The notes beneath the pieces were generated by a model that worked only from the letters and a program-made list of their open reading frames with translations, made no database searches and had not been told where the DNA came from. Positions 3,601 to 40,754 of a DNA stretch of 64,000 nucleotides are shown in pieces. The DNA comes from Muricea muricata. Its lineage: Eukaryota > Cnidaria > Anthozoa > Malacalcyonacea > Plexauridae. Location of the stretch: the NCBI GenBank assembly GCA_963855995.1, contig OY979716.1, forward strand, positions 91,062,955 through 91,126,954, given 5' to 3'. Position 1 is the stretch's first letter; every line of letters begins with the position of its first letter. Both the position numbers and the translations under genes were made by a program.

Positions 3601-6600
3601 ACATATTTATTTATTACATTGCATTTTCTTTACTTGTGACTACTGAAAATTAAAACACTCATTTTGGTAGTATTATGACAGACGAATCCTGTTATATGTA
3701 TGAAAGCCTTAAATTGAATTCTAAAAAACCCAATTTTACTAGGACTTTGAGCAGTGCCTTGGAAGTCACTCAGACTTTGATTTCAGGTCGTTTTAAGGGT
3801 GATTACATAACATGTGCTGCACCCGAAAGCCAAATTAACATTGATAGCTATGAATACCGACTTAACTTTGTGACTATGAATCTTGCTGTTACATAATAAT
3901 GTTACATCATAAATTCTAATGTAATGGCATGTCCAGTAACTGATGTTAATAGTACGACAGCTAATGCTATGAAAAGCAAAACTAATAAAAGTTATTGCAC
4001 CAGCAGTGTTGTGCGTGAGAGCCAAGCTAAATATTAATGTTGTTTATTGACCAAAAGTAACTCAAGCCGATAATATTCCACCTTCTTGCATTCATCACTA
4101 CATTATACGTAACCTTCCAGCTAAAGTATCAAAGTTTTGAGCATCTTAATTGTTTTCATGTATTCATTAACCTTATATCTGTTTTATCTGTGTTAAGTGT
4201 TTGGTTCCTCATCTCCGAAAAGTCGCTTAGAAAATGATTTTCGCTGCCATGGTTTGGGAAACACTTTTTTTGTGCATGAATCTAAAGATTTTTTATGCTG
4301 AATCACTTGTGGTCACTCCTGGAAACCCGCAGTTTTTTTTTTGTAATTTGCGATCAAACATCGCTACTTTTCACTTGGATTTCCGCCATTTTTCTTTAGG
4401 AACTTCATGTTACTTACCGTTATTCTACTAGTTCAAGCCCCTTAGAGGGAGTTTCTCACGAATACATATGTTTTTGTATTGTTTTGATCATCGAGTTCAA
4501 TCAATGGAAATTATACTAAACGACAAAATACGTACAGAAAGCATCAATTTTCGAAAATGTGGGCATATACAGTATCTATTCAATATATTAAAGTGCACCT
4601 AACCCCAATTTTTTTTAATAAAATCTGATAAATTGTGATTTTAGAAGATTTTTTGCGAAAAAATTTTTCCAGTTGGATAAATACTCAGGCCGCTAGCCCA
4701 GAGAAAGTTCGTCCTATATTTGGTTCACAGCTGCGTCATGTAGGAGATTGGGGAGAGCAATATCTGTGACGTAGATTCCGAACAGAGCATCTTTGAGTGC
4801 ATGTCAGCTATTATAAGTCATAAGGTCACGCTGTCGAAGTATTTTTGATTGAATAAGCTCTAAATATCAGTTCTTCGTAAATAAATCGTGAAATGTCTTT
4901 AAGTGCTTGTGATTCCGAGTCTTTCGACAATTCTGATGGGTCAGAACTAAAGGATTATTTCGACTACGAGGGTGAAATCGAACCATCATCCGAAGATGAA
5001 GTTTCAAACAGAAACACAACAAATTCAGGTCCTGTTTGGAGCGATCTGGAAGGCGCTTTGTGCGCTGATGATCCTGTTGCAGACGCGGAATGGACTGCCC
5101 AGTATGAAAAGGAGATGCAGGAAATCAGAGACCAAGAAAAAAGAATGAAAGATCAAGATCGACTTGATGGGGTTATAGAACTGAGTGCATGGTATGGACA
5201 TTCATACTTTTATAATATGAGAATTGATTACATTTTATGTTTTGTATACACTAAATAGTAACTAAGAAACGTTTTCACAGGTGCCAGTGTGGAAATTGTA
5301 GTTTAGAGTTGTTACAAAATGCATTTGTGAGTGTAACTGTTGTCGTGAGCTACAAGCATGTACTGATACAATGGAGATGGAAGAAGTTTTGCAAGATTTT
5401 CCTCCTGATAGCAAACTTGCATGTGTAACCGAATACCCAGGATATGACACAGTCTGTCTTCAGAAATGGAGCCTAAAGCAGCGTGCATGGAAATACAAAA
5501 CAAAAGGCAACAGACGATGCAAACAGATCAAATCTGAAAAAAAGTAATTCGCTGATATGTATTTTTTTGTTGACTTGTGATGTCAGTGATTAGTATGCTT
5601 GGATTACTTCAATGTCTTAATGGTGAATATTGATGAATAGTGGACATACATGTATTGCCTTAGATATGTAGATATTTCCGTAGTGTGTCATACAGAGAAT
5701 ATTTTCGCATGGTGTATGGTGTGCTAGGAACAAAAAGAATACATTTGCCAGCCTGTGTTTACCATGCAATCAGGAAACAATTCCCATTAAGCAAGGATGA
5801 ACAGTATACAGGGTTTGAATCTGATGAAGAGGAAAGCTAATTTTTTTACTGAATGACCATCATAGTATTTATATTTACAACTTTTTTATGTACATCTTTA
5901 TAATCCACATCAGGCCTGTTTATATGATCCCACTCAGCCAGGACAAGATAAGAGCTGGGATCATTTTCATGTATTGAAATAAGTCACCAGGGTAAAAATG
6001 TTTGCTAGAAGATCTTGTAGTTAAACAAAATTACTGTTGCTGCTTTAACATCCTTAGAAAAATAGTAATGTTTTGCTGAATCATGAAAGTGTGACTTATT
6101 TCAATACATCAAAATGATCTCATCTTGTTCCAGCAAAATGGGATCATATAAACAGGGCCCAACTCTGTCTATTATTCTTAGGCTAATAGAATATCATTGT
6201 TACTTGTCAGGTACGTATTGCATGAACAGTGTCGGGCAGAGCCTGAATATATGAATATACACCCCCCTCCAATTAGTGCTCTAGCGACGGCCCTGTGCTC
6301 CCCGAAATCTTACTTGTCAAGAAGAGAGCTCTAGAATTTAACCCTTTAGTGATCAGAATCTTTTTCTTTTGTTAATTGTACTCCTATTGTTTTTTTCTTT
6401 CTTTGTAAAAATATCTTTTTGCTCTTACTGCCATAAATACAGGATGTTGGCCATCAAAGGGTTAATGGGTTGTGACAAATTAGACACAGTACATTGAAAA
6501 CACTAACTATAGTACAAAATATTTGAGTGTCAGTGATACTAGCTAATTGCAACGGTAATTGCAATTTTGAAAGTACCTGCAATACATTTCTCTGTATGAA

Positions 6601-39630: not shown

Positions 39631-40754
39631 GTTGCGCCTTGGCCTTGCATGCAAGTGAAGCAGCAAAATTTGCAACGGGACATATAACTCCTTCGCAAAC
39701 AAATTATTCTTATTTAGAACTTGTCAGCGCCTATATATACAGCGACAATAATAATTGCGATTTTAAATTGCTAGACCTCACAGAAATTACCAAGGTGTAT
39801 CCGGATGAATGAATATATAGTCAGAAAGTGTCGCAAAAATGTGTGGGGGGCAAGTGTCGGTAAAACCCAAACAAGATTTCAATTGCTTCCTTTGAACTCC
39901 CACTATTGCACTAGTAATGCGCATTATGCGCTAATGTTTTTTATTGTCCTTTCCGACATCATTAAATGGCTAAATGAATTTCAAACTTGGCGACTAGCCG
40001 TCCAGGTCAGTTGAAAGCCCACACACGTTTTTCCATTCGACACCCTTTCGGCAGTCTTTTTTTAATTAAACAATTTGGGTACAAAGTATAAGCGCTGGTA
40101 GTCCCAGTATATGTAACAGTGTCGCATATAATTTATGTTGGCATATTGTGCGTGCGAGTCGCGTTCGATGTTCCAAGCGATGTTTCTATTATATCAAGTC
40201 TTGTTTTTTACGGATATGTTATAACGTACAAGGTATACATTTCTTGATATATTAATATGCCAAATGATATGTCGTTTGATTTGAAGTCAGTGAAATGTAT
40301 GACTGAGAGTGTGTGTGTGTTTGCACATTGGCAGACGCCCAGCATGGGATCTGACATCTCGGCGCATATAACAGTTGTGATAGATGCGTTTATTCAAAAT
40401 AATGTTAAAAACATATTTGGAGAACAGTAATACTTGGGTATTGCACAATTACTTAATTGTATTTTGCTCAGCAACTTTTATTTTTTGGCAAAATGTTCTT
40501 ACTGAAACGTGATAGTAATAATAATTTATATTGTAAAATTCGGCCTACCCTACTAATGACGTCAGCAAAGTTATTCTGCATAAATTAGCATAACGCTTTA
40601 TTTTCAAAATGGCTGCCGTACGATCAACATTTCCTCAAATTTTCTCAACAACTAAATGCGATAGACTCACGAAAATGCGTAATTAAGTATTCCATAGGTA
40701 AGTGTAATAGATATAAGGAATAAAATTTTTTGTTGCCAATGTCCTTTAAGTAAA

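Follow-up and report, generated by a model that had tools for sequence, protein, structure and literature searches.

Why should three transposable elements in one locus of the octocoral Muricea muricata each carry a gene for the ballast domain, best known as the cytoplasmic end of the P2X7 receptor? The window analysed here, a stretch of 64,000 nucleotides (C1:91062955-91126954, C1 being contig OY979716.1), contains all three. Besides P2X7, other metazoan proteins contain the ballast domain (Rump et al. 2020, PMC7016195). Its fold has been identified as KolX, the accessory protein of Kolobok transposons of the Kol0 lineage, which are known from vertebrates, annelids, cnidarians, and sponges (Kojima & Bao 2022, PMC9587614). 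The same paper already proposed that P2X7 originated by fusion with a captured KolX, and that KolX is the source of Nanor as well as of the P2X7 tail. Among the matches listed for KolX or Kolobok in the literature from 2018, KolX is named in that paper only, and among those listed from 2020 no other paper brings P2X7 and Kolobok together. The idea of a transposon origin of the ballast domain and of the P2X7 tail is prior art, and the headline that a drug-target receptor owes its tail to a transposon is already in print.

The three elements are the following:

4592..10561, no strand assigned: K1, complete Kolobok element with termini AGTGCACCTAAYCCCAA and TTAA on both sides
32332..35347, no strand assigned: K2, non-autonomous element with TTAA on both sides and terminal inverted repeats (TIRs) of about 0.6 kb
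37176..40745, no strand assigned: K3, recently amplified element with termini AGGACATTGGCAACRA and TTAA on both sides

The preliminary description had presented K1, K2, and K3 as TTAA-flanked elements ending in AG...CT, and their ends lie exactly where it placed them. It had also assigned a P2RX7_C-type ORF to each of them. This holds for K3, whose gene is intact, whereas the gene of K1 is frame-broken and K2 retains the C-terminal exon only. The TTAA target duplication and the AG...CT termini are found again at two further K3 copies (L037 and L038), eight closed Kol0 copies, and two relatives of K3 (L042x and L043x), and the termini fit the Kolobok rule 5'-RR...YY-3', which contrasts with piggyBac (PMC9587614). 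K1, K2, and K3 are very probably Kolobok-superfamily DNA transposons whose ballast gene is KolX, an accessory oriented convergently with the gene for the transposase. Their assignment to Kol0 is drawn from KolX. K2 and K3 are non-autonomous.

The use of TTAA is common to piggyBac transposons, a few families of which are reported to have a KolX-like C-terminus with most cysteines absent (PMC9587614), and K2 has just the C-terminal part of KolX, without the cysteine clusters. A piggyBac-type identity of the elements, or of K2 alone, is nevertheless highly improbable, since all termini are AG...CT as in Kolobok and as against piggyBac (PMC9587614), Kolobok-like motifs or THAP are present in K1 and the relatives, and K2 shares the AGTG start of K1 and has an exon closest to that of K1.

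As a Kolobok element, K1 is full-length, one strand carrying the THAP and transposase pieces, the other the frame-broken KolX, and its TIR is 83% identical over 88 bp. Its parts, and a partial copy of it, are as follows:

4893..5840, plus strand: KolX gene of K1, frame-broken, with an N-terminal acidic ORF at 4893-5258
6869..8713, minus strand: transposase pieces of K1, comprising a Mutator-like stretch, a first-D motif, and an H2CH-like motif
9905..10309, minus strand: THAP domain ORF of K1 (PF05485, E 8.3e-13), the expected transposase N-terminus
23590..25780, minus strand: K1b, inverted copy of the K1 5' half inside a segmental duplication

In KolX of K1, the CxCGxC and ECxCC pieces occupy different frames within 5255-5547, and the LPAC exon at 5664-5840 matches P2RX7_C (PF20478) at 23.6 bits against a gathering cut-off of 23.5. 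The Mutator-like stretch at 8408-8713 scores 25.8 bits, just below the cut-off of 26.5. The first-D motif, common to the transposases of related elements, lies near 8076 and the H2CH-like motif near 7018, while the pattern for DxxH after the second-D motif gave no match in K1. K1b lies within the segmental duplication and is not an independent insertion. This duplication is inverted (1-6827 / 23590-31259, 92-94% identity), takes in the 5' half of K1 as well as the window's left edge, and has a breakpoint inside K1.

The TIRs of K2 occupy 32332-32954 and 34751-35347, and a motif search found none of the transposase D or zinc motifs sought between its ends. Its single coding part is the following:

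34328..34507, minus strand: C-terminal KolX exon of K2 (LPAC), 38% over 53 aa to the K1 exon in BLASTP

This exon matches the K1 exon at a BLASTP E of 1e-13 in a single comparison and gave no P2RX7_C (PF20478) match in Pfam at E up to 1; it is called a KolX fragment because of its similarity to the K1 exon, which is the only basis. Long termini like those of K2 also occur as inverted pairs 3.1-3.2 kb apart at C1:67893492-67896692 and C1:1537555-1540620, and further K2-type elements are likely in the genome.

The window contains other repeats. An uninterrupted 587-aa Mutator-like transposase ORF at 42979-44742 on the plus strand (PF20700, E 7.5e-81) apparently belongs to a separate element. An LTR-retrotransposon-like unit on the minus strand at 57961-62870 has 213-bp direct repeats at 97% and long ORFs that were named by eye as gag-, protease-, reverse-transcriptase-, and integrase-like. 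A long TA-rich microsatellite at 21375-21882 can be read as poly-YI ORFs on both strands.

Across the genome, the search with P2RX7_C (PF20478) gave 742 first-look candidates, of which 150 were scored, all above the cut-off of 23.5 bits; the window's own KolX genes are outside these 150. The 20 best-scoring KolX loci were read over 10 kb each, with extension for eight, a sample that favours well-kept copies. Eight of the 20 (L010, L012, L017, L018, L020, L025, L026, and L027) are closed elements of 6415-8391 bp, closed meaning a TIR of 18/20 or better between TTAA, which none of 200 dinucleotide shuffles reached (best 15). In the remaining 12 an end may lie outside the stretch read. Five families make up 13 of the loci, with copies 94-99.5% alike whose alignments start on the left at TTAA/AG and whose sequence differs beyond that point. 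The left-terminus pattern TTAAAG-N6-12-A[GC]TC, itself derived from 14 of the loci, is present 0.8-2.5 kb before KolX in 19 of 20, L009 being the exception. The 19 include four of the five loci for which there is no aligned copy and no closed TIR (L009, L013, L014, L016, and L028). Within the 20 loci the pattern also occurs at three places elsewhere, so the figure, which is without shuffle control, includes some chance background. On the opposite strand, at least one transposase-like motif was found in 19 of 20 loci and the first-D motif in 13, both counts being without chance control. Four of the 19 (L009, L011, L015, and L016) have the short H2CH motif only, and no transposase motif was found in L013. 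One THAP motif pattern gave no match in the 20 Kol0 loci.

On these three counts (closed ends, left terminus, and transposase-like motif), the earlier suggestion that the ballast protein is a transposon accessory is borne out in this genome. The left terminus was not seen at three lower-scoring loci, L048-L050, of which 2 kb upstream was read, and near-total inclusion in elements holds for the best-kept copies. Of the 66 pairs among 12 Kol0 KolX ORFs, 56 show saturated dS; in the other 10, where it can be measured, dN/dS is 0.08-0.16 with a median of 0.11. Between families KolX is under purifying selection, and the elements have retained it as a protein throughout their history. The presence of the domain in P2X7 and other metazoan proteins (PMC7016195) might instead suggest a host gene that transposons picked up repeatedly. 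The similar layout in nearly all 20 loci and the place of P2X7 between the Kol0 and K3 types in the tree described below speak against this origin, the probability of which is very small.

Two observations concern the distribution and variety of the scored hits. Of the 150, 117 are on C1, a contig making up 27% of the assembly, reflecting either real clustering or an effect of candidate scoring. L048 represents a further KolX type (CVCGYC...VIPSCC), with element ends not found in the 2 kb read upstream, and the 165-aa ORF length recurs in five rows of the scored hits.

KolX of L018, which is borne by a transposon, finds rat P2X7 at E 3.1e-24 in a single-sequence search. KolX of K3 reaches E 0.39 only, and the P2X7 ballast is therefore nearer to the Kol0 type. 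In an unrooted tree of 29 rows, P2X7 is placed between the Kol0 and K3 types. A branch supported at 100/100 separates the K3 type, and P2X7 falls on the same side of it as Kol0; the Kol0 group is supported at 83/90 only, 11 of 26 inner branches are open, and the lungfish protein and L048 have long branches. The rows are without Nanor and include one lungfish protein as the only non-cnidarian KolX. Fourteen of the 29 were seen here in an element context, which does not apply to L048, the lungfish protein, and 10 database proteins. Element-borne types stand on both sides of P2X7, and capture from an element is therefore the simpler reading. The P2X7 tail would thus be a captured KolX, as Kojima & Bao proposed (PMC9587614). 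The preliminary description had likewise suggested that P2X7 acquired its domain from such an element, and both the match and the tree position support this already published idea. In P2X7 the cytoplasmic ballast (PDB 6u9v and relatives) belongs to a membrane channel fusion, whereas KolX is a separate protein. The ballast proteins of Rump et al. 2020 (PMC7016195) have the same domain across Metazoa, and the main text of that paper contains no word that begins with 'transpos'. A 267-aa protein of the lungfish Protopterus annectens (P0240) has a second, partial tandem ballast copy, and no channel part was seen in it.

The octocoral KolX resembles KolX of the Kol0 lineage (Kolobok-1_XT type, PMC9587614) in its ballast fold, conserved cysteines, position beside a Kolobok transposase, TTAA, and RR...YY termini. 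In contrast to the published KolX, it includes a CXC-like cluster at the N-terminus and a linker rich in RG; 'CXC' is absent from the main text of PMC9587614. In octocoral Kol0 elements, the exon before the ballast codes for C-x-C-R-G-x-C...C-P-C-x6-C-x3-C...C-x-N, and a pattern search found this cysteine-cluster exon in five of the eight closed copies. Two octocoral gene models of 333 aa (P0166 and P0168) each combine the CXC-like, RG-rich, and ballast parts. The transposase of the K3 lineage ends in a cluster similar to the N-terminal one of Kol0 KolX, and the two modules match each other with an hhalign probability of 86% and E 5e-6 over 42 columns. The Kol0 KolX N-terminus gave no match to CXC (PF03638) over the cut-off and the K3 exon stays below it at E 0.21; 'CXC-like' is used as a description only because neither module passes the Pfam CXC cut-off. 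KolX of the K3 lineage is divergent, 25-30% identical to that of L018, and the lineage has the CXC-like end on its transposase, unlike Kol0 (PMC9587614).

The domain layout suggests a possible division of labour, in which the CXC-like cluster and the RG-rich linker would touch DNA or RNA and the zinc ballast would serve as a platform for protein contacts. Octocoral KolX would then be a second nucleic-acid-contacting partner of the transposase, a role that is plausible for octocorals but held here at somewhat less than an even chance. The literature matches listed gave no description of a CXC-like part of KolX or of K3-like derivatives. We did not find described before the octocoral KolX layout, the CXC-like transposase end, or K3 as an amplified deletion derivative.

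K3 has the following coding parts:

37475..38086, plus strand: KolX gene of K3, intact, one exon, ballast fold (P2RX7_C 50.5 bits, cut-off 23.5)
38519..38854, minus strand: CXC-like exon of K3, C-terminus of the K3-lineage transposase, beginning after CAG and ending in a cysteine cluster
39280..39630, minus strand: THAP exon of K3 (PF05485, E 1.3e-15), with donor GTGAGT at 39279

The THAP and CXC-like exons are predicted to splice in frame across GT...AG into a protein of about 228 aa. A motif search of K3 found no DDE core and no D or zinc motif of the kinds sought. Among named relatives, the K3 protein is closest to those of Dendronephthya gigantea (85%), Paramuricea clavata (78%), and Xenia sp. 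(71%), and other database entries reach 97%. A genome search with the left 287 bp of K3 gave 231 candidates, of which 40 were scored: 25 full-length at 94-100% (K3 itself included), two partial, and 13 at 83%, which may be a fragment amplified by another transposon. The CXC-like exon follows all 25 full-length left ends, at 1321-1357 bp in 22 of them, and is free of stops in 21 of 23 rows with at least 94% amino acid identity. A group of four among the 25 copies, on C1 at 63.05-63.08 Mb, may consist of duplicates rather than independent copies. In the three full copies of the family (K3 and two further complete ones, L037 and L038), KolX and the CXC-like exon are open throughout and THAP is open in two, being frame-broken in L038. 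At L039, a K3-like left end and a frame-broken KolX adjoin a hAT-like transposase ORF.

The relatives of K3 retain more of the transposase. L043x (5236 bp, termini AGGAAAATGGCAATAT, TTAA) has an open KolX and a transposase with THAP, first-D, second-D, and DxxH motifs and the CXC-like end. L042x (6062 bp, TTAA) has two 16-bp termini that are both identical to the left one of K3, a first-D motif, and THAP and CXC-like exons, its own KolX and THAP being frame-broken. L041 has the gene order of L042x and L043x with a frame-broken KolX, and its right end was not found. The first-D motif is present in all three relatives. DVWH, which would fit the C/DxxH signature of Kolobok, follows the second-D motif in L041x and L043x, and the same pattern was negative in L042x and the 20 Kol0 loci. 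A THAP domain, usual on Kolobok transposases (PMC6004289), is present in K1, K3, and L043 and, by motif, in L041x and L042x. The transposases are recognised by motif and similarity only; the catalytic E was not located in them, and those exons of the relatives that were tried had no Pfam transposase match. K3 and L042x align at 70-74% in the blocks 1-922, 1346-1694, 2087-2453, and 3342-3570 and one short block. Between the CXC and THAP blocks lie 393 bp in K3 against 2365 bp in L042x, and K3 is therefore a core-deleted derivative. It very probably descends from a Kolobok of the order THAP - DDE - CXC-like, such as L042x or L043x, through deletion of some 2 kb holding the catalytic exons, after which it multiplied while retaining KolX and both ends of the transposase gene.

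Selection on these genes differs between and within families. Between K3 and L042x, dN/dS is 0.10 for KolX, 0.18 for CXC, and 0.11 for THAP, and across the K3 lineage between-family comparisons with measurable dS give 0.09-0.27. The KolX genes of K3 and L038, two members of one family, differ by 10.5 non-synonymous and 2.5 synonymous changes, giving a dN/dS near 1 on few changes; for K3 and L037, an insertion of 1 base ahead of the start codon inflates the KolX figure. KolX changes within the family look near-neutral. In the one pair K3 and L038, changed columns per kb number 3 in CXC, 18 in KolX, 45 in THAP, and 13-51 in non-coding sequence.

Two accounts of the K3 genes follow from these figures. 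A chance internal deletion may have been amplified in trans, with KolX, THAP, and the CXC-like exon as dead weight that has not yet decayed. The youth of the copies, the near-neutral KolX with its few changes, and the broken THAP in one of three copies agree with this account, while the CXC-like exon, far less changed than the rest in that one pair, does not. The KP element, an internally deleted derivative of the P element, represses P elements. By analogy, the core-less THAP-CXC protein of K3 could bind the termini and repress or titrate the full transposase while KolX aids mobilisation, which would favour the spread of K3. In both cases copies of a THAP transposon have lost the core, retain the end that binds DNA, and have spread; K3 differs in belonging to another superfamily and in keeping a second gene. 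Open genes across the family at 94-100%, the nearly stop-free CXC-like exon, its low rate of change between K3 and L038 (3 columns per kb, compared with 13-51 in non-coding sequence), and the in-frame exon join are what a KP-like role would lead one to expect. On the other hand, THAP is broken in L038, KolX is near-neutral within the family, open frames are expected anyway in such young copies, and the group of four copies on C1 at 63.05-63.08 Mb perhaps consists of duplicates. We favour dead weight, which is the probable account, over a KP-like helper or repressor role, which is rather unlikely.

The boldest reading would join these lines. K3 would be a Kolobok without a transposase, spreading with KolX and the THAP-CXC protein as two functional helpers; the shared CXC-like module would make KolX the second subunit in contact with DNA, and the ballast of P2X7 would derive from a part of the transpososome and not from a signalling domain. 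As a whole this reading is doubtful.

What is added here to the published origin of the P2X7 tail is a count among the best octocoral KolX loci, clean complete elements, evidence of selection on KolX between families, and the domain layout. The combination of CXC-like, RG-rich, and ballast parts points to where the original job of the domain may be sought. As a naturally occurring deletion derivative, K3 could help to show which part of a Kolobok element is needed in trans. The P2X7 ballast, which binds zinc and guanine nucleotides, could be studied via its free relative KolX.
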